The translations under genes and the position numbers were made by a program. From positions 1-27,067 of IMG/VR virus record IMGVR_UViG_3300025168_000538: a stretch of DNA of 27,067 bases; one strand, written 5' to 3'. The stretch is from a virus. Shown here piece by piece: positions 5,576 to 24,678 of this stretch; position 1 is the first letter of the stretch, and each line of letters begins with the position of its first letter. The notes under the pieces were generated by a model. It was not told where the DNA came from. It did not search any database and saw only the letters and a program-made list of their open reading frames with translations.

Positions 5576-5608
5576 TCTGTTTATATAATTATATTTTTAT
5601 ATCTTTGC
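5576..5608 (+). promoter_or_regulatory. Bacteroidota-type early promoter
   Basis: TATCTTTGC at 5600-5608 matches the Bacteroidota -7 element TAnnTTTG. A TCTG at 5576-5579, 20 bases upstream, is a one-mismatch fit to the -33 TTTG. The expected transcription start is near 5613, leaving a short A-rich leader before the ATG at 5633. This would drive the early replication and recombination operon with the host primary sigma factor. The assignment is by motif and position only. Confidence 0.6.
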
Positions 5609-6795: not shown

Positions 6796-6833
6796 TTAAT
6801 TAATAAAGACCTGCAAAAACAGGCACAATAAAA

Positions 6834-7154
6834 ATGGAAGTAAAAGGAAAAGTAGTAAAGAAGTTACCAATAGAATCAGGAATTTCTAAGTCAGAAAAAG
6901 AATGGAAAAAACAAGTAATTGTAATAGATACAGGAGCAGACTATAATCCTGAAATTGCAATTCAAGCTTTTGGAGATGATAAAATTAAAGACTTGAATAA
7001 ATTATCAGTAGGAGATTCAGTATTAATTAAGTGTAATGTGTCATCAAGAGAATACAATGGCAAGTATTTTCATAATATTGATGGGTGGTTTTTTACAAAG
7101 AATACTAAAGAAGAAGGTGTTGTAGTTTCTGAATCTGAAGATTTACCTTTTTAA
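6834..7154 (+). CDS. DUF3127 single-stranded DNA-binding-like protein
   Basis: This 106-residue protein has the OB-fold-like pattern of DUF3127, a family widespread in Bacteroidota and their phages: MEVKGKVVKKLPIESG, EKEWKKQVIVIDTG, IAIQAFGDDKIKDL, VGDSVLIKCNVSSREYNGKYF and a closing acidic tail SESEDLPF. That tail resembles the acidic tip of bacterial SSB, which recruits partner proteins. I infer that it coats single-stranded phage DNA and works with the Rad52-like protein. The 38-base gap before it contains a short CCTG/CAGG inverted repeat (6810-6823) of no clear function. Confidence 0.75.
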   Translation: MEVKGKVVKKLPIESGISKSEKEWKKQVIVIDTGADYNPEIAIQAFGDDKIKDLNKLSVGDSVLIKCNVSSREYNGKYFHNIDGWFFTKNTKEEGVVVSESEDLPF

Positions 7155-7155
7155 G

Positions 7156-7671
7156 ATGACACAAGAAGATAACTTTAAAAACTTATGCAACCTAACGACA
7201 AGTGTCTTAGGATTGCGTAAGGGTTCTTTAGCTTATAAAAGCCGTAAACAAGATTTACAAATAGCAAGATCTATAGCAAGTGTTATTGCTAGAATGGAAG
7301 ACGAAACACATCAGACAGTAATAGCATCAGTAATAAAAAGAAATAGAAGTTTGATATATCATTACGAAAAAATGCACAAGTCTAACTACTCAACTTTTCC
7401 GAAGTACAGAGATAAATTTAATATTGTGTATAATGCTTATGTAACAATTAAAGATTCTAAAAAATTATTTTATGACTTATTTGAACTTAAAGATTATTTA
7501 AGAAAAAATGGAGTTACTAATAGTAAAAATCATCAATTATCAATTAGGATTAAATCAGGTAAAGTAGGTACTGACATAAAACTTTCTTACAGAGATTTTT
7601 ATAATCAATTAGAAAATGTTAAGATTGCACTTCAGAATTATAAATATGAAACGGAAATAATTACTTTATGA
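7156..7671 (+). CDS. DnaA domain IV-like DNA-binding protein
   Basis: Residues 22-75 read SLAYKSRKQDLQIARSIASV followed by IARMEDETHQTVIASVIKRNRSLIYHYEKMH. This parallels the helix-turn-helix domain IV of DnaA (Arg-rich start, bulky ARxIA helix, recognition helix with R/S/hxxxxxxxH), the part that binds DnaA boxes. The AAA+ ATPase part is absent. The remaining 100 residues are a basic mixed region without recognised motifs. The gene starts one base after the DUF3127 stop and overlaps the replisome gene by 4 bases, so a role in origin recognition or transcriptional regulation of host DnaA targets is plausible. Confidence in the coding call is high and in the fold moderate. Confidence 0.6.
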   Translation: MTQEDNFKNLCNLTTSVLGLRKGSLAYKSRKQDLQIARSIASVIARMEDETHQTVIASVIKRNRSLIYHYEKMHKSNYSTFPKYRDKFNIVYNAYVTIKDSKKLFYDLFELKDYLRKNGVTNSKNHQLSIRIKSGKVGTDIKLSYRDFYNQLENVKIALQNYKYETEIITL

Positions 7672-10092: not shown

Positions 10093-10923
10093 ATGAATGT
10101 ATTAAGTTTATTTGATGGAATGAGTTGTGGTCAGATAGCTTTAGAACGTGCAGGAATTAAAGTAGATAATTACTTTGCAGCAGAAATTAAGAAACACGCT
10201 ATTGAAGTAACACAACACAACTACCCCAATACAAAACAATTAGGAGATGTTACTAAAATTAATGGACTTAATCTTCCTAAAATAGATTTACTAATAGGAG
10301 GTAGTCCTTGTCAAGACTTTAGTAGAGCTAACAAAGAAAGAAAAGGAGTAGAGGGTTCTAAGTCTAGTTTATTCTTTGAATACATTAGACTTCTTAAAGA
10401 GTGTAAACCTAAATACTTTCTTTTGGAAAATGTTATAATGTCAGACTATAATTATTGGTTTATTTGTAATGAGTTAAACTGCGAACCTGTTAGAATATGT
10501 GGTAGTTTAGTAAGTGGTGCTTTAAGGGATAGACTTTATTGGACAAACATTCCACCATTCAGTTATGATCTAACAGGTAGATTGATTAGTAATATACCAC
10601 AACCTAAAGACAAAAAAATATATCTTCAAAATATCTTAGACAGTGGAACAACAAAGAAAAGGAAACACACTTGCTTAAATACAAAAAGTGGTTACCAAAC
10701 ACCTAATCAAGATTCTTTAATTCATAGAAACAAAACAACAGGAATGATAACCTTAATATATGAAAAAGATTGTGTTAGAACTGTTAATCAAAATGAATTA
10801 GAAAAACTACATAATATTCCTAAAGGATATACAAGTATTTTAAATCAAACAAAAGCAGGTGATTTGATTGGAGATGGGTGGTCAGTTGATGTAGCAACAC
10901 ATATTTTTAAAAATATTTTATAG
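10093..10923 (+). CDS. DNA (cytosine-5) methyltransferase, orphan
   Basis: The product has 276 residues and carries the C5-methyltransferase motifs in order: motif I SLFDGMSCG at residues 5-13 (S-adenosylmethionine binding), motif IV GGSPCQDFS at about 70-78 with the catalytic Cys, motif VI FLLENV at about 110-115, a motif VIII-like ALRDRLYWTN and motif X-like GDLIGDGWSVDVA near the end. The target-recognition part between VIII and X is short, as in small phage and DNMT3-like enzymes. No restriction enzyme is adjacent, so the likely role is to mask phage DNA from host restriction or alter gene expression. The next gene starts directly after its stop. Confidence 0.9.
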   Translation: MNVLSLFDGMSCGQIALERAGIKVDNYFAAEIKKHAIEVTQHNYPNTKQLGDVTKINGLNLPKIDLLIGGSPCQDFSRANKERKGVEGSKSSLFFEYIRLLKECKPKYFLLENVIMSDYNYWFICNELNCEPVRICGSLVSGALRDRLYWTNIPPFSYDLTGRLISNIPQPKDKKIYLQNILDSGTTKKRKHTCLNTKSGYQTPNQDSLIHRNKTTGMITLIYEKDCVRTVNQNELEKLHNIPKGYTSILNQTKAGDLIGDGWSVDVATHIFKNIL

Positions 10924-11490
10924 ATGACTGAGATATATTTAGAAATATCAAAGCTAACAGATAAGTTTAGGAATATGGCTTACGGACTTACATCTGATAA
11001 AAATGATGTCAACGATGCAGTGCAAGAATTAATGCTTTATCTAATACAGATGAATCCCTCTACATTAAAGACTATTTATGATAATGATGGAATTGATGGT
11101 GTTACAAGATATGGAGCAGTTGCCTTAAGACGTGCTTTAACAAGTCCAAGAAGTAATTACTATTATAAGTATAAGAAGTATTATTCACACATAGACAGCT
11201 TAACAAGTGCAGTTACTTATGATGAAATGGAAACAGGCGAAACAATACCATCTAAGCACCTTTACAACTTGCCTAATGAATTAGTAGACAATTATCAATG
11301 GACTAGCCTTGAAAAGATAGATAAAGCCTTAGAAAGCTTTTCTTGGTACGATTCTAAAATTTTTACTTTGTATTATTATGAATGTAATACATTAAGCTCA
11401 CTAGCTCAGAAGACTGGGATAAGTAGAAACAGCTTATTTACGACAATAGATAAAGTTAGAGTACAATTAAAAGATAAGTTAAGTGAATAA
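10924..11490 (+). CDS. Sigma-70 family-like protein, candidate late transcription factor
   Basis: This 188-residue protein has an N-terminal region like sigma region 2 (DKFRNMAYGLTSDKNDVNDA followed by VQELMLYLIQM). Its C-terminal region is like sigma region 4 (LEKIDKALESFSWYDSKIF at about 129-148, then TLSSLAQKTGISRNSLFTTI as a helix-turn-helix at about 156-176). Between them a basic, tyrosine-rich segment (SPRSNYYYKYKKYYSH) could contact DNA. Length is close to T4 gp55, the late sigma factor. The gene comes after the early operons and before the packaging and virion genes, four of which share an upstream TCTATTATATA motif, making it the best candidate to direct late transcription. A terminase small subunit-like or other helix-turn-helix role is the alternative. 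Confidence 0.6.
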   Translation: MTEIYLEISKLTDKFRNMAYGLTSDKNDVNDAVQELMLYLIQMNPSTLKTIYDNDGIDGVTRYGAVALRRALTSPRSNYYYKYKKYYSHIDSLTSAVTYDEMETGETIPSKHLYNLPNELVDNYQWTSLEKIDKALESFSWYDSKIFTLYYYECNTLSSLAQKTGISRNSLFTTIDKVRVQLKDKLSE

Positions 11491-11893
11491 GTTTTTTGTA
11501 CCTAAAGAAATATATGAAGATAGAATAGCTATCTGTAAAGGCTGTGAATTTTATTTTAAAATGACAGGAAATTGTAAAATTTGTTTGTGTTTTATGAAGC
11601 TGAAGTCCAAAATCAGCAGTCAATCTTGTCCAAAAGGCAAATGGCAGAAGACAACAGAAGTAGAAGTAAGAACAGATATACCTGAAGAAATAATACAAGA
11701 GATTATAGCTTTGTGGCCTGACTTAAAAACAGGAAGAGCAAAAGATCAAACTGCAAAAAAGAAAATGATTGAGATTTACAACACGTTATACAATACTAAC
11801 TACTCAACAGGTACTAATTGTGGTTCTTGTATAGCTGCTTGTTTTGATGGTATAAAAAAGATATATAAAGAATATGCAGGAAACAATTACTAA
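11483..11893 (+). CDS. Cys-rich zinc-binding-like protein, 136 aa
   Basis: The frame starts with GTG and overlaps the sigma-like gene by 8 bases; no ATG fits better. The N-terminal half contains CKGCEFYF, CKICLCFMKLK and SCPKGKW, five or more cysteines arranged as a probable zinc ribbon. The middle (PEEIIQEIIALWPDLKTGRA) is helical. The C-terminal GTNCGSCIAACFDGIKKIY adds three more cysteines. I know such Cys-rich proteins from several large phage groups, without function. A nucleic acid or RNA polymerase contact is possible given its coupling to the sigma-like gene. Confidence 0.65.
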   Translation: MNKFFVPKEIYEDRIAICKGCEFYFKMTGNCKICLCFMKLKSKISSQSCPKGKWQKTTEVEVRTDIPEEIIQEIIALWPDLKTGRAKDQTAKKKMIEIYNTLYNTNYSTGTNCGSCIAACFDGIKKIYKEYAGNNY

Positions 11894-12787: not shown

Positions 12788-13170
12788 TGAAGTTCGTAAT
12801 TAAGGACAGTAGAGATAAGCAAAGCCTATTTAGTTACCTAAAAGAATTAGAGAACGATTACATAGTCAGCGTAAAGAAACAAAGAAACACACGTAGCAAT
12901 ATGCAGAACAGTTATTACTGGAAATGTATCGTACAAGGACTAGCAGAAGAACTAGGATATTTTCCTAATGAGATGCACGATGTACTAAGAGCTAAGTTTT
13001 TATCTGAATATGAAATGATCAGTATCAATGATAACCAAATAGCATTAAATAAAATAGGAAGTACAACAGCACTTAATACTAAAGCCTTTGAAGTATATAC
13101 AGAACAAATAAGAGTATGGGCTATGACTGACTTGGGTATCAGACTAATGCTACCAAACGAATACGAGTAA
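12787..13170 (+). CDS. ninB: NinB-like recombination protein
   Basis: The 127-residue protein contains SVKKQRNTRSNMQNSYYWKC, ELGYFPNEMHDVLRAKFL and TALNTKAFEVYTEQIRVWA, then MTDLGIRLMLPNE. This is the layout of the NinB/Orf family, which binds single-stranded DNA and can substitute for RecFOR in lambda recombination. It completes a recombination set with the Rad52-like, SSB-like and NinG proteins. The late-type TCTATTATATA motif begins at the very next base after its stop. Confidence 0.75.
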   Translation: MKFVIKDSRDKQSLFSYLKELENDYIVSVKKQRNTRSNMQNSYYWKCIVQGLAEELGYFPNEMHDVLRAKFLSEYEMISINDNQIALNKIGSTTALNTKAFEVYTEQIRVWAMTDLGIRLMLPNEYE

Positions 13171-13185
13171 TTTCTATTATATAAT
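13171..13185 (+). promoter_or_regulatory. Late promoter-like motif, copy 1
   Basis: TTTCTATTATATAAT occupies exactly the space between the NinB stop and the small terminase ATG. It shares TCTATTATATA with three other sites. If TATTAT (13175-13180) is a -10-like element, transcription would start at the A of the ATG, giving a leaderless message. Confidence 0.6.
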
Positions 13186-13539
13186 ATGGAAACAGAACAA
13201 AAGAGGACACAGGAGGGTAAAAAAAAGCTACTAGCTGCACTAGAGGTATCATTAGGTATAGTTACAGAAGCTTGTGAGAAAGCAGACATAACAAGAAGCA
13301 GACATTATGCTTGGATGCAAAGTGATGAAGAATACAAGAAAGCAGTAGATGACATAGATAGTAAATTTATTGACTTTGCTGAAACAAGTTTAAAGAAACA
13401 AATTAAAGAAGGTAATACAACAGCCACTACATTCTTTTTAAGGACTAGAGGACGTAAGAGAGGTTACAATGAGAAACAAGAAATAGATTTAACTTCAGGA
13501 GATGAAAGAATTAAAATAAATATAAATCTTGGAGATTAG
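13186..13539 (+). CDS. Terminase small subunit-like protein
   Basis: The 117-residue protein has a charged N-terminus and a helix-turn-helix of the phBC6A51/terminase small subunit type (LLAALEVSLGIVTEACEKAD, ITRSRHYAWMQSDEEYKKAV). A helical oligomerisation region follows (DDIDSKFIDFAETSLKKQIK) and then ATTFFLRTRGRKRGYNEKQE, which is typical of the family. It should recognise phage DNA and start packaging with the large subunit, whose frame overlaps its end by 11 bases. The gene begins directly after the TCTATTATATA motif and is the first late gene. Confidence 0.8.
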   Translation: METEQKRTQEGKKKLLAALEVSLGIVTEACEKADITRSRHYAWMQSDEEYKKAVDDIDSKFIDFAETSLKKQIKEGNTTATTFFLRTRGRKRGYNEKQEIDLTSGDERIKININLGD

Positions 13540-14839
13540 CCCTGAATTTACACCAAAGCAAAAGGAATGTTTAAAGTACCTATTTGATCATAAGACTAAA
13601 GAGGTGTTATTTGGTGGTGCAGCAGGTGGCGGGAAGTCTTGGGTAGGTGTAAGTTATTTAATATTAATGTGCCTTCAATACCCTAAAACTAGATACTTAA
13701 TGGGAAGGTCTAAGCTAGATGCTTTAAAAAAGACTACACTAAATACATTCTTTGAAGTCTGTACTGCTTGGAATCTTAAAGCAATTAAAGACTACACGTT
13801 TAATGGTTCTAGTAATGTAATAACCTTTTACAATGGTTCAGAGATAATACTAAAAGACTTGTTCTTATACCCATCAGACAGAAACTTTGATAGCTTAGGT
13901 TCTTTAGAAATAACAGGAGCTTTTATAGATGAAGCTAATCAAATAACAGAGAAGGCTAAGAACGTAGTGGCTTCAAGACTTAGGTATAAGTTAGACGAAA
14001 ATAACTTAATTCCTAAACTACTGATGACTTGTAATCCTGCTAAGAATTGGGTTTACTCAGAGTATTACAGACCAGCACAAGATAATACAATAAAGCACTA
14101 CAGGAAGTTTATTCAATCTTTAGTAATAGATAATACTTACATCTCTAAGCATTATGAAACTCAACTATCACAATTAGACGAACTAAGTAAGCAAAGACTT
14201 TTATTTGGTAATTGGGAGTATGATGCAACAGCAGATAGTCTTATTGACTACAATTCTATAGTGGGAATGTTTAGTCAGAAAGGAATAGAGGGAGATAAAT
14301 ACATAACTTGTGATGTAGCACGATTTGGAAGCGATAAGACAGTCATAATGCTTTGGCAAGGGTTACACATTAGATATATAAGAACTATCCTTAAATCGGC
14401 TGTAAATGAGGTTGTGGATGAAATTAAGAAACTACAACAAGAGAATGGAGTAAATCTTAGGAATATTATAGTTGATGAAGACGGAGTAGGTGGTGGTGTA
14501 AAAGATTACTTACGTTGTCAAGGATTTACTAATAATGCTAGAGCTTTAAAAGGTGAGAACTATCAAAACCTTAAAACTCAATGTTACTACAAATTAGCTG
14601 ACCAAATAAACAAAGGTCAAATCGGTGTAAGTTGTTCAGATGTAAATGTTAAAAATTACATAACAGAGGAGTTAGAACAAGTAAGAACTAAGGATGCAGA
14701 TAAAGATAATAAACTTCAGATAATACAAAAAGATACTGTTAAAGCTATTCTAGGGCGTTCTCCTGATTATGCTGACGCTTTAGCTATGAGAATGTATTAC
14801 GAGATAGATAGTAACTTTGGAAGGTATTTCGTTCAGTAA
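13529..14839 (+). CDS. terL: Terminase large subunit
   Basis: The 436-residue motor has an N-terminal ATPase with Walker A GGAAGGGKS at residues 29-37 and Walker B GAFIDEA at about 130-136, followed by the coupling motif LLMTCNPAKNW. The C-terminal RNase H-like nuclease has acidic residues in YITCDVARFGSDKT (about 258), IIVDEDGVGGG (about 313) and SPDYADALAM (about 411). It packages DNA through the portal and cuts it. The start is a TTG that overlaps the small subunit gene by 11 bases; the next ATG lies after Walker A, so the TTG is needed. Length is typical for this class. Confidence 0.93.
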   Translation: MEISPEFTPKQKECLKYLFDHKTKEVLFGGAAGGGKSWVGVSYLILMCLQYPKTRYLMGRSKLDALKKTTLNTFFEVCTAWNLKAIKDYTFNGSSNVITFYNGSEIILKDLFLYPSDRNFDSLGSLEITGAFIDEANQITEKAKNVVASRLRYKLDENNLIPKLLMTCNPAKNWVYSEYYRPAQDNTIKHYRKFIQSLVIDNTYISKHYETQLSQLDELSKQRLLFGNWEYDATADSLIDYNSIVGMFSQKGIEGDKYITCDVARFGSDKTVIMLWQGLHIRYIRTILKSAVNEVVDEIKKLQQENGVNLRNIIVDEDGVGGGVKDYLRCQGFTNNARALKGENYQNLKTQCYYKLADQINKGQIGVSCSDVNVKNYITEELEQVRTKDADKDNKLQIIQKDTVKAILGRSPDYADALAMRMYYEIDSNFGRYFVQ

Positions 14840-14854
14840 ACTAAAAACAACAAA

Positions 14855-14867
14855 TTTCTATTATATA
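14855..14867 (+). promoter_or_regulatory. Late promoter-like motif, copy 2
   Basis: TTTCTATTATATA lies in the 32-base gap after the large terminase gene, 4 bases before the ATG of the tail chaperone gene. It matches copy 1 across 13 bases. Confidence 0.6.
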
Positions 14868-14871
14868 GTGT

Positions 14872-15471
14872 ATGAAAGTTAAAATCAAAAAACAAAACAA
14901 AGTAGAAAAATTTAGTCTTATTAACAGTTGGTCAGATGTTACTTTGTCTACCTGGATTTCATTAGTTGACTTTGCAACAGGTACAAAGACAGAAGAAGCT
15001 ACTGAAACAATAGCAGCGCTATCAGATATTCCTAAACAGTTAGTAAAGGAACTAGCCTTATCTGATGTTGCAGTTATAATGAGTAAGATAGCAGAGCTAC
15101 AAGCAAAGCAAGATACGACTTTAAAAAGAATAATAGAAATCAATGAAGTTGAATATGGCTTTCATCCTGATTTAGATAAGATTACTTTAGGTGAGTATGC
15201 CGACATAGAGCAGTTTATCAAGAACGGAATAGAAACAAATCTTCCTGAGTTGATGGCTGTACTCTATAGACCTATAAAATATAAGAAAGAAAATATTTAT
15301 ATAATAGATGCTTATGATGGTGAAATAACAATGCGAACGGAGGAAATGAAGAAGATGTCAGCTGAACAAGTGCAAAGTGCATTGGTTTTTTTTTATCATT
15401 TAGGGAAGGTATTGTCAGTGATTTTGCCATCATATTTGATGGATCGGCTGAAGGAAACGAAGACGCAATAG
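14872..15471 (+). CDS. Tail assembly chaperone, short form (gpG-like)
   Basis: The 199-residue short product is soluble and helical, including WSDVTLSTWISLVDFATGTK near the start and ITLGEYADIEQFIKNGIETN in the middle, then LPELMAVLYRPI. This composition and place before the tail genes fit gpG-type chaperones, which coat the tape measure during tail assembly. At codons 172-174 the frame runs over T9 (15386-15394); ribosomes that slip back one base enter an 83-codon extension to give a longer gpGT-like form. Zero-frame translation after the slip site continues only 25 more codons. The frameshift evidence strongly supports the functional call. Confidence 0.8.
   Translation: MKVKIKKQNKVEKFSLINSWSDVTLSTWISLVDFATGTKTEEATETIAALSDIPKQLVKELALSDVAVIMSKIAELQAKQDTTLKRIIEINEVEYGFHPDLDKITLGEYADIEQFIKNGIETNLPELMAVLYRPIKYKKENIYIIDAYDGEITMRTEEMKKMSAEQVQSALVFFYHLGKVLSVILPSYLMDRLKETKTQ
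15386..15394 (+). other. T9 slippery site for programmed -1 frameshift
   Basis: Nine T residues are read in the zero frame as GTT TTT TTT TAT, which contains the ideal slippery heptamer T TTT TTT. A -1 slip moves the ribosome into the open frame that starts TTA TCA TTT AGG. No clear pseudoknot was found by eye downstream. Confidence 0.8.
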
Positions 15472-18702: not shown

Positions 18703-21458
18703 TGAGCGCACAACTTATAGTATACCCGCAAAATTACGAAGGCTTAACTAATTCTACTAATATTGCTAATGCTCTTTTAGTTGATGGAATTAATTTTAGT
18801 ACAGTAAATGCTTCAACAAGTTTTTTTGTAGGACAGCCTAATGGTTCGCAAGAAGCAATAAATTTTTACAATCCTACGCTACCTGTTAATACTTGGAAAA
18901 GATACAAGGTGGGAAGTTCAGGAATTTCTGCATCAGGCGGTTCTTTAAGTATTGCTATATTAGGATCTACTAATCAACAGGGAATTTTACAGAAGCTTTC
19001 AAACCTTACAGTCGGAGCTGTTTATAATGTTGAAATAGATTGCACTTTATTAATTAATGGAATTTTTTTTAATTTATCTATTTTTTCTGGAACTGTTTTA
19101 CAAAGTATTCAACCATTTCCAATAACAGGAAGTGGTACTACTATTTCTTTTCAATTTACTGCTAACTCTACTGAAGACACTATAGTTATAGGCGGGAAAT
19201 TTGGAACAGGAAACCTTATTACTTCAAATATAAGCATTTCTACAGCACCAACACAACCTTCAGGAATAATTCAAATTTTAGGAGATGGACAAGTGATTTT
19301 AGATTTATATGAAGATGAAGATTTACCATTAACTTTAAGCGTAGATAATTTTAAAAATGTAGCTGAACAAATACAATCTTATTCAAAGGCTTTTAATCTT
19401 CCTGCTACAAAAAGAAACAATAAAATTTTTGATCATATATTTGAAATAACAAGAGAATTAGAAGTTGGTAGTCTTTTATTTAATCCTTATAAAGAAACAA
19501 AGTGCGTATTAAAACAAGATGGTTTTATTTTATTTGAAGGATATCTAAGAATGTTAAATATTACTGATAAGGAAGGGGAGATAAGCTATGATGTAAATCT
19601 TTATTCTGAAGTAATAGCTTTAGCTGACATCTTACAAGAAAGAACGTTTAGAGATTTAGATTTTACAGAATTAGAACACGATTACAATAAGAGTAATATC
19701 AAAAGAAGTTGGAACGAAAGTCCAGACTCAAGTCTTGTATATACAAATCCTAGTACATCAGGATTTAGAGATGCTTATACTACTTTAAGATACCCTTTTG
19801 TAAATTGGAATGGAAATTTATTATTAGCTAATAATACTGGAGCTTCAGGCCCTACTGACGGAAACCCACAACTTACATCTTTACAACAAGCTTTTAGACC
19901 TTTTATAAATATAAAATACATAATAGATAGAATATTTGAAGCAACAGACTTTACTTATGAATCAGCTTTTTTTAATGAAGATAGCTTTAAGAAGCTGTAT
20001 ATGGACTTTAATTGGGGTGCTGATAACAATCCATTTAGTATATTAGAAAATGGATTAGCTTTTGTAGATACTGTTCAAACAGCAACTACTAGTTTTGTTA
20101 CGATACAAACAAACGATAATGGATTTAACACTAATTTAGGTTATAGTGGAGGTGTTTATACTGCTTTAGTTGACAATCAGAATTATATAATTGATTATAG
20201 TTATGGATATAATGTATCAACTGGCGCAGCTTGGTCAGGAACTTTTAGATGGATTTTGACTAGAGCCTCAGGATTTGTTGAACCTCCTATAAACATAACG
20301 AATGTAAATGGAGTCGGAATTATAGGAACAGGATTTAGTAATTTTAATGTTATATTTGATACTTTGAATGTAAATTTAAATGTCGGAGATACTTTAAAGC
20401 CTGAATTTAAATCTAGTACAGCTGCTACAAATGATTTTCGAATATTGATTTTTGGTAATACAACTAACAATCTATTTGGTACAGTTGGTCTTACTATTGT
20501 ATCAACTAGCGCAACAGCAGCCACAAATAATTCTTTTTTACAAACTTTAAGAGGTGAATTAGGGCAATGGGAGTTTTTAAAAGGATTGATCACAATGTTT
20601 AACTTAGTAAGTTTACCTGATGAAGATAATCCTAATAATATAAAAATAGAACCTTATCAAGACGTATTTATTCCAACACCAACAGCTGGTGAAACTCTTG
20701 CTAATAGAGGAATTGAACACAATTGGACTGAAAAAATCGATGTTTCACAAATGAAGCTAACACCTTTGACTGACTTAAATAGAAGTACAATGTTAAAGTT
20801 TGTAGAAGATGATGATGACTTTGCTTTTAATAAATATAAAAATCAAGTAGATGGACATTTGTATGGAAGTCAGTTATTTACTGTTTCTAATGAATTTAAT
20901 ATATTAGATGGAGAAGATGAAATAGTTGCTGAACCTTTTGCAGCTACAGTAGTTAAGGCTTTGCATAATAATTTTCCTCAATTTATTACCCCTGCAATTT
21001 ATGCTATGAATGACGATGGTACGTCTGAAGGCTTTGAGAATAGTCCTCGCATAATGTTTAACAATGGAGTTAAGCCAACAGGAGCAAGTTATTATATACC
21101 TGAACAAAATGGTTTATTAAGTGAAAATCAAACAAATTTTCTTCAGTTTAGTCATTTATCTTCAATACCTTCTAATTCTTCATCTTTAGATTTTCATTTT
21201 GGTATATGTCAATTATTACAAGGAGTTGGATTACCTACTACTAATAATTTATTTGATTTATATTGGCTACCTTATTTAAATGAGCTTTACAATCCTAATA
21301 CTAGAACTATGACTATTAAAGTAAATCTTAGTCCTGCTGACATTAATACATTCAAGTTTAATGACACAGTCTTTATAAAGAACAGAGTCTTTAGAGTAAA
21401 CAAGATAGACTACAAGCCGAACGACTTGGCAACAGTAGAATTTATACTTATACCATAA
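18702..21458 (+). CDS. Large tail/baseplate protein with inserted beta-sandwich domains, 918 aa
   Basis: This is the largest gene in the window. Residues 1-185 include a lectin- or carbohydrate-binding-like beta-sandwich (NTWKRYKVGSSGISASGGSL, LSNLTVGAVYNVEIDCTLLI). Residues 190-310 look like a structural core (QILGDGQVILDLYEDEDLPL, TLSVDNFKNVAEQIQSYSKA). Around residues 450-610 comes a second beta-rich insertion. The C-terminal third returns to a core with MTIKVNLSPADINTFKFNDT, VFIKNRVFRVNKIDYKPND, the way many baseplate hub and tail-associated proteins end. The likely job is adsorption apparatus. Domain borders are rough estimates; no enzyme motif is visible. Confidence 0.6.
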   Translation: MSAQLIVYPQNYEGLTNSTNIANALLVDGINFSTVNASTSFFVGQPNGSQEAINFYNPTLPVNTWKRYKVGSSGISASGGSLSIAILGSTNQQGILQKLSNLTVGAVYNVEIDCTLLINGIFFNLSIFSGTVLQSIQPFPITGSGTTISFQFTANSTEDTIVIGGKFGTGNLITSNISISTAPTQPSGIIQILGDGQVILDLYEDEDLPLTLSVDNFKNVAEQIQSYSKAFNLPATKRNNKIFDHIFEITRELEVGSLLFNPYKETKCVLKQDGFILFEGYLRMLNITDKEGEISYDVNLYSEVIALADILQERTFRDLDFTELEHDYNKSNIKRSWNESPDSSLVYTNPSTSGFRDAYTTLRYPFVNWNGNLLLANNTGASGPTDGNPQLTSLQQAFRPFINIKYIIDRIFEATDFTYESAFFNEDSFKKLYMDFNWGADNNPFSILENGLAFVDTVQTATTSFVTIQTNDNGFNTNLGYSGGVYTALVDNQNYIIDYSYGYNVSTGAAWSGTFRWILTRASGFVEPPINITNVNGVGIIGTGFSNFNVIFDTLNVNLNVGDTLKPEFKSSTAATNDFRILIFGNTTNNLFGTVGLTIVSTSATAATNNSFLQTLRGELGQWEFLKGLITMFNLVSLPDEDNPNNIKIEPYQDVFIPTPTAGETLANRGIEHNWTEKIDVSQMKLTPLTDLNRSTMLKFVEDDDDFAFNKYKNQVDGHLYGSQLFTVSNEFNILDGEDEIVAEPFAATVVKALHNNFPQFITPAIYAMNDDGTSEGFENSPRIMFNNGVKPTGASYYIPEQNGLLSENQTNFLQFSHLSSIPSNSSSLDFHFGICQLLQGVGLPTTNNLFDLYWLPYLNELYNPNTRTMTIKVNLSPADINTFKFNDTVFIKNRVFRVNKIDYKPNDLATVEFILIP

Positions 21459-23880: not shown

Positions 23881-23903
23881 ATATCAAATAAACTAACTAA
23901 AAA

Positions 23904-23914
23904 TCTATTATATA
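23904..23914 (+). promoter_or_regulatory. Late promoter-like motif, copy 3
   Basis: TCTATTATATA lies in the 36-base gap after the tape measure gene. The ATG of the head protease begins 2 bases after the motif, the same geometry as copy 1. Confidence 0.6.
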
Positions 23915-23916
23915 CT

Positions 23917-24639
23917 ATGCCTTGCGAAAAATGTGAAAACGGAAAATATAAATGGGGAAAGACAGGAAGCTGTAAGTATAACTCTAAAGCTGAATGTGAA
24001 GAAGCTAATAAAGACTATTACGAAGATATGAAAGAAACTAAAATAGTAGAATTAATAATTGCAGACGATAGTCAAGAATTAGCAATAGACGCAATCAGTC
24101 TAGTAACAAGTCCTGCAATAGAGCAATCCTTTGTATTTTTTGGTAAAGAAAAGAACAACTTGACATTTGCTAAAGTAGATGAAGAAAAAAGAATGCTAGT
24201 AAGTCCTGCTTTAATTCCAAACAAGCAAATATTTAGACACGATCCTAATACTGACAGTGATTACTATGTTTACTTTTCTAAAGAAACAGTCCGTAAGGCT
24301 GCTGAACTATACTTAAAGCATAACAATCACCACAAAGCAACGTACCAACATCAAGACAGAGTATCAGGAGTTCTAACAGTTGAATCTTGGATTAAGGAAG
24401 GAGATAGTGATAAGTCAAAGTTATACGGTTACGACTTACCTAATGGTACTTGGTTCGTTAAAATGAAGATTGAGAATGACGAGCTATGGCAAAAGATAAA
24501 AGCAGGTGATGTTAAAGGTTTGTCAATTGAAGGATTTTTTACTTCAAAATATGAAGCTATGCAAAAGAAAAAGCAAGAGCCAACTAATGAGGAAATACTA
24601 AAAGCACTAAACGAAATAATCACAAAATCAAACAAATAA
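23917..24639 (+). CDS. XkdF-type head maturation serine protease with Cys-rich N-terminus
   Basis: The 240-residue protein has the features of XkdF-like phage proteases (S78-related): IDAISLVTSPAIEQSFVFF near residue 60, the catalytic His in TYQHQDRVSGVLTVESWI (about residues 142-158), LPNGTWFVKMKIENDELW near 172-190 and the Ser in VKGLSIEGFF at about 198-207. It should cleave scaffold and capsid precursor during head maturation. The first 35 residues carry MPCEKCENGKYKWGKTGSCK plus another Cys in KAECEEAN, a small Cys cluster added to the usual protease domain. It begins right after a late motif, and scaffold and capsid genes follow. Confidence 0.8.
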   Translation: MPCEKCENGKYKWGKTGSCKYNSKAECEEANKDYYEDMKETKIVELIIADDSQELAIDAISLVTSPAIEQSFVFFGKEKNNLTFAKVDEEKRMLVSPALIPNKQIFRHDPNTDSDYYVYFSKETVRKAAELYLKHNNHHKATYQHQDRVSGVLTVESWIKEGDSDKSKLYGYDLPNGTWFVKMKIENDELWQKIKAGDVKGLSIEGFFTSKYEAMQKKKQEPTNEEILKALNEIITKSNK

Positions 24640-24645
24640 ACAATC

Positions 24646-24660
24646 TTTCTATTATATAAT
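24646..24660 (+). promoter_or_regulatory. Late promoter-like motif, copy 4
   Basis: TTTCTATTATATAAT, identical to copy 1 across 15 bases, lies between the protease and scaffold genes. Here the ATG is 18 bases downstream after an A-rich leader, so this message would have a short leader rather than none. Confidence 0.6.
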
Positions 24661-24678
24661 ACAACTTAAATTAAAACT

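Follow-up and report, generated by a model that had tools for sequence, protein, structure and literature searches.

The 188-residue product of the gene at 10924–11490 (+ strand, ATG start) is best read, with a probability that we put at about 0.85, as a phage-encoded ECF-like (group IV-type) late sigma factor that reads bipartite late promoters. The gene lies in a viral DNA stretch of 27,067 nucleotides (IMG/VR record IMGVR_UViG_3300025168_000538, positions 1–27,067), the whole of which is referred to below as the window. The reading draws on the family match and predicted fold of the protein, on the strand, spacing and location of a two-part motif in front of late genes, on the association of the motif with the sigma gene, and on the different −10 elements that accompany diverged sigma homologues.

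Identity and setting of the sigma-like protein

At least 584 relatives of the protein were confirmed in IMG/VR contigs; searches of INPHARED phages at the protein and at the DNA level gave no close matches, and no relative was found in bacterial and archaeal genomes (one per species). Among NCBIfam profiles the protein matches TIGR02937 (sigma70-ECF; E = 1.4e-8) over residues 13–186 and model positions 12–165 of 165, i.e. nearly full length, at a score (34.5 bits against a curated cut-off of 42.9) that makes it a remote member; further matches were to NF058625 (GFO_1088 family, flavobacterial ECF) and TIGR02985 (Bacteroidota ECF). With Pfam the single sequence gave a weak match in region 4 only (Sigma70_r4_2, E = 0.0064, under the gathering score). 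When 59 diverse homologues of the window sigma (alignment A3, identity down to 48%) were searched, Sigma70_r4 was matched by 45 and PHROG_1740, ‘RNA polymerase sigma factor’, by 53 (best E = 2.7e-7).

AF2 gave only a poor model (pLDDT 62.5) when supplied with 17 close sequences; the model built on A3 (pLDDT 79) has two confident domains, sigma2-like (residues ~1–80) and sigma4-like (~128–187), joined only by a flexible linker (~89–127) predicted to be disordered. This arrangement, without sigma1.1 or sigma3, is that of ECF sigma factors, and it is seen both in the model and in its PDB matches. The best Foldseek matches in the PDB were the ECF sigmas SigL, SigH, RpoE and SigW, with modest E-values (4e-3), and nearly all rows of the refined list were sigma factors or models of them; the non-sigma rows seen were two UPF0122-type HTH proteins, which match the sigma4-like part only. 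Superposition of the full-length model on sigma-E gave Z = 10.2 with an rmsd of 11.7 over 140 residues, the placement of the domains being different, and the domains taken singly gave Z = 10.0 and rmsd 1.9 over 67 residues (sigma4) and Z = 9.0 and rmsd 2.0 over 70 (sigma2, against that of SigR). As a sequence-profile search of the PDB with alignments A1 and A3 returned no significant sigma match, the structural link rests on the fold comparison together with TIGR02937. The initial annotation had called a sigma-like protein of this length with region 2-like and region 4-like segments, and had suggested comparing its predicted structure with sigma factors; both segments are borne out, by the TIGR02937 alignment that runs across them and by fold matches to each. 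No second sigma-like gene was identified within the window.

The gene stands at the end of an early block encoding an Erf-like annealing protein, SSB, a replication initiator, NinG and a DNA methyltransferase, and is followed by NinB, terminase and the head and tail genes, in agreement with its earlier placing between the early operons and the late block. Its end is overlapped by a gene (11483–11893, +) that is conserved beside it in related genomes and encodes a Cys-rich DUF6171 protein (PF19668, E = 2.1e-8), a possible partner, anti-sigma or cofactor. In the cultured Nonlabens phage P12024S the product of gp35, two genes past the sigma gene of that phage, is Cys-rich too. Before the early block of the window lies a host-type box, TATCTTTG (5600–5607, +), recognized from its sequence and from relatives and corresponding to the Bacteroidota sigma-A consensus TAnnTTTG (PMC9723704); host-type promoters (TTG-N17-22-TAnnTTTG) likewise precede the early block in many related genomes. 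As host-type promoters precede the early block, the likely plan is one in which the host sigma would serve the early genes and the phage sigma the late genes. The host of this marine virus, judged by the cultured relative and by promoter type, is probably of the flavobacterial type.

Anatomy of the predicted late promoters

On the + strand of the window TCTATTATATA occurs four times (13173, 14857, 23904 and 24648) against 0.045 copies expected under an order-4 Markov model, and all four copies stand at the starts of late units. The two motif sites named in the initial annotation, 13171 and 24646, are thus present and are joined by two more, at 14855 and 23902. A single − strand copy at 15298, inside the gene after terminase, is probably there by chance. 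The first gene of the late block, the terminase small subunit (13186–13539, +; PHROG terminase small subunit, E = 4.2e-8), is preceded by the −10 element TTCTATTATATA at 13172–13183 and by a −35-like element, CAAACGAAT, at 13154–13162, and transcription is predicted to begin with the first base of its start codon (ATG 13186), which would make the message leaderless. For the gene that follows the terminase large subunit (ATG 14872), the −10 element lies at 14856–14867 and the −35-like element, AAACTAAAA, at 14838–14846. Before the head maturation protease homologue, identified by PHROG match and again predicted to be leaderless (ATG 23917), the −10 element ATCTATTATATA lies at 23903–23914 and the −35-like element CAAATAAAC at 23885–23893. 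At the scaffold-like gene (ATG 24679) the corresponding elements are at 24647–24658 and, as CAAACAAAT, at 24629–24637, with a predicted start at 24661 that would leave a short leader. All of these elements are on the + strand.

When IMG/VR was scanned for the motif only, blind to protein content, contigs that share the arrangement of the window were returned. In 21 contigs of the lineage (582 kb, window included) the late strand holds 63 exact copies of TTCTATTATATA and the opposite strand a single one. Typical genomes carry three to five late-promoter sites, which precede the terminase or a ‘ParB-like’ gene (a label guessed from the N-terminus), the gene after terminase, the protease, the scaffold and a gene whose product starts with MIQ or MIH. 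The contigs G004–G049 (L221–L254), about 25–32 kb long and with the same gene order from different start points, are probably circularly permuted near-complete genomes, and the window (27 kb) is likely to be without the MIQ gene and its promoter. Five contigs (G011, G030, G034, G037 and G039; L227–L228, L235–L236 and L239–L244) have a terminase small and/or large subunit unlike that of the window and keep the late promoter in front of it.

Upstream of the −10 element, at fixed spacing, the sites carry a second, −35-like element, CAAAYRAA, so that the promoter is bipartite. Numbered from the predicted start, the two bases of AA at −31/−30 are present in 95 and 96 of 96 sites, C at −12 in 94 and A at +1 in 89, and TATTATAT spans −11 to −4. 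The initial annotation had supposed a late promoter without a −35 element, which these counts contradict. The upstream element was found in every gene class of promoter sites and is therefore not peculiar to a single set of homologous sites; of the gene starts that lack the motif, only 22% have AA at the equivalent place. Bacterial ECF promoters have −35 and −10 elements about 16–17 nt apart, and the predicted elements AA[A/C]-N16-CTA of the window family and AAAC-N16/17-CGTTA of P12024S agree with this pattern, the agreement being one of architecture only.

Start codons never lie less than 12 nt past the conserved C. The offset of the ATG has a minimum of 14, is exactly 14 in 38 sites and ranges from 14 to 50 nt, and where the ATG is 20 nt or more away the A is still kept in 40 of 43 sites. 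The simplest reading of this geometry is that transcription starts at the conserved A, which implies that the mRNAs of many late units would be leaderless. We also considered whether the motif might be the site that terminase recognizes, and rejected this, since it precedes several unrelated genes and is kept where the terminase genes no longer match those of the window.

In the mechanism that we propose, the sigma factor would be made from the early block, bind host core RNA polymerase and direct it to the late promoters, of which a genome has about five. The sigma4 domain would contact the A-rich element (−32 to −24, including the nearly invariant AA) and the sigma2 domain the TTCTATTATATA element (−14 to −3); transcription would start at the A 12 nt past the conserved C, giving a leaderless mRNA where that A belongs to the ATG. 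Binding to core polymerase, the timing of the switch and the exact start site are thus predictions of the model. As the sigma gene and the motif occur together and have diverged together, we infer that the sigma factor reads the motif directly.

Association and divergence of sigma gene and promoter

In 50 long records from the motif scan the sigma gene is present in 18 of 22 motif-rich records and in 5 of 28 others (Fisher p = 1e-5, which takes related records as independent and is indicative only). All 15 motif-rich records of 25–36 kb carry it, and the four motif-rich records without it (G025, G035, G036 and G046) are fragments of less than 24 kb, two of which begin at the gene adjoining that for sigma. 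Motif and sigma gene travel together in one phage lineage, and their co-occurrence taken by itself could reflect shared descent. One contig (G010; L225, L226) has sigma-family matches near both of its ends, at 698–1252 and 29148–29705 (E = 1e-92 and 3e-88), which may be a pair of paralogues or else unequal copies that overlap in the assembly.

Of the cultured phages, those that came closest to the window were the Nonlabens phages P12024S and P12024L, whose portal and capsid-like proteins are about 30% and 26% identical to those of the window. P12024S gp33 (P0002; NC_018271), whose annotation goes no further than ‘hypothetical protein’ and a sigma-70 region 2 domain (PF04542), passes the Pfam cut-off for PF04542, as does another related protein (L482), and occupies the syntenic place before terminase; tblastn with the window sigma (P0001) did not find it. 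The P12024S genome has no copy of TTCTATTATATA. At least seven of its genes are preceded by AAAC-N16/17-CGTTAATATA-like sites, with the ATG mostly exactly 12 nt past the C, so that the register is that of the window promoters and the spacing that of ECF promoters. A scan for promoters of the P12024S type returned many large contigs, apparently unrelated, and a scan with the conserved gene after terminase gave further clades with sigma homologues recognized by A3 or by gp33. In these other clades the late genes are preceded by CGTTATATA, CGATATATA or TGTTATATA, with the distance to the ATG unchanged, although some of the clades have the sigma homologue or the motif represented by one or two sites, and an unbiased k-mer search did not pick the motif in some partial loci.

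The −10 element of the window family (CTATTATATA) is constant over sigma homologues that are 48–96% identical, and differs where the phage sigma belongs to another clade. Within the window clade a stretch presumed to be region 2.3/2.4 (YGAVALRRALTSPRSNYYYKYKKYY) is, like the motif, nearly invariant, and both differ in other clades; distant relatives retain the sigma gene and the promoter architecture with a different −10 element. These patterns indicate that sigma and promoter would have changed together across related viruses. The most distant of the records examined (G001; L255, L256) has TTGTTATATATA at 10450, before the gene after terminase, and at 19309, near a scaffold-like gene. It also has a marginal sigma-like ORF (6806–7312, E = 0.014), and because of this ORF and the two TTGTTATATATA sites it was not used as a negative control.

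Three other explanations were weighed against a late sigma factor. The protein might be a sigma-like activator of the RinA/ArpU/Ltr kind, whose region-4-like HTH recruits host holoenzyme while a host sigma reads the motif. Its best single-sequence PHROG match, phrog_36 ‘transcriptional regulator’, covers the C-terminal HTH (E = 2.7e-5), and such regulators typically sit shortly before terminase, as this gene does. We consider this unlikely: RinA/ArpU-like activators have the region-4-like HTH without a sigma2 domain, whereas here a sigma2 domain that matches that of SigR is predicted with confidence, TIGR02937 spans both domains, the related proteins gp33 and L482 carry PF04542, and the motif contains no host TAnnTTTG box and has a −10 element that varies between phage clades. 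Less likely still is that a host ECF or primary sigma reads the motif and that the phage sigma has other targets, such as host genes or a small number of middle genes. Flavobacteria do encode several ECF sigmas, and in Flavobacterium psychrophilum a CGT −10 box has been assigned to them (PMC9723704), one predicted ECF motif sharing CGT in its −10 element with some of the related phage clades; against this, the −10 element (CTATTATATA in the window family) follows the phage sigma across clades as described above, and the window offers no other gene identified as sigma-like.

That the motif is an RNA-level signal, such as a translation enhancer or processing site, we regard as highly improbable. 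Many copies do lie directly against a start codon, and in Bacteroidetes A/T-rich signals have been described ahead of start codons (PMC3160421), but the ATG lies anywhere from 14 to 50 nt away whereas the two DNA elements keep a fixed spacing, the upstream one may fall within the preceding gene, and the spacing in P12024S is ECF-like. A phage-encoded late sigma factor thus remains our preferred reading.

Relation to known phage sigma factors

The initial annotation had taken T4 gp55 as its model. The pairing that it drew, of a small sigma-like protein with a non-host late motif in one phage, stands as a coherent late switch; the likeness to gp55 and the single-element promoter that went with it do not. 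T4 gp55, a diverged member of the sigma family and very small, works with a separate sigma4 mimic, T4 gp33, and activation is by the sliding clamp (PMC2988020). The two proteins share small size, sigma family, late genes as targets and an A/T-rich late motif, but the window protein has its own confidently predicted sigma4 domain beside sigma2 and its promoter a conserved −35-like element, and the gp55 analogy was dropped.

On our best reading of the published systems the closest counterpart in behaviour would instead be gp47 of Salmonella phage 7-11 (SaPh711_gp47), which works with host core polymerase at bipartite late promoters, GTAAtg-16-aCTA, the early genes of that phage being served by the host sigma (PMC8948821). 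Here too a phage sigma and bipartite promoters before late genes are predicted alongside host-type promoters, and thus host sigma, for early genes. The host phylum and the sequence are different, the spacing of the elements differs by about two bases, and leaderless mRNAs, predicted here, have not been reported for 7-11 (PMC8948821). The small sigma gp36 of phiEco32, which serves middle and late genes, recognizes a single-element promoter, tAATGTAtA, a property explained by its missing region 4 homology (PMC4331800, PMC8948821); in the window both region 4 and the upstream element are present, so that the sigma described here obeys the phiEco32/7-11 rule tying the one to the other. Bacterial ECF sigmas (TIGR02937, NF058625, Escherichia coli sigma-E) share with it the sigma2–sigma4 fold and −35 plus −10 promoters, but the phage gene has no recognized anti-sigma, its predicted targets are late phage genes and its −10 element is A/T-rich. 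P12024S gp33 resembles it as a PF04542 protein encoded before terminase, with a bipartite and predicted leaderless late motif that was found in this work, and differs in its diverged sequence and in its −10 element (CGTTAATATA against CTATTATATA).

Phage late sigmas are already known (T4 gp55, phiEco32 gp36, 7-11 gp47); the present case adds a new phylum, a new promoter, the predicted leaderless geometry and a series of diverged pairs. Although marine metagenomes commonly contain relatives of this virus, our full-text literature search, which covered mostly papers outside subscription, gave no earlier report of such a promoter, a late sigma switch or a cognate sigma–promoter pair in flavobacterial phages. 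The finding supplies defined promoters and a start site predicted with single-base precision, and P12024S is a cultured relative in which the same logic would apply. The naturally varied pairs could be used to relate residues of the sigma to bases of the promoter and to build expression tools for Bacteroidota. We think it rather probable that Bacteroidota phages of a large group, most of them uncultured, use their own late sigma–promoter pairs, co-diverged clade by clade, and express much of their structural programme from leaderless mRNAs in hosts where such messages are rare. Leaderless late mRNAs, if true, would be a notable departure, given that only 5.5% of the mapped mRNAs of F. psychrophilum are leaderless (PMC9723704).
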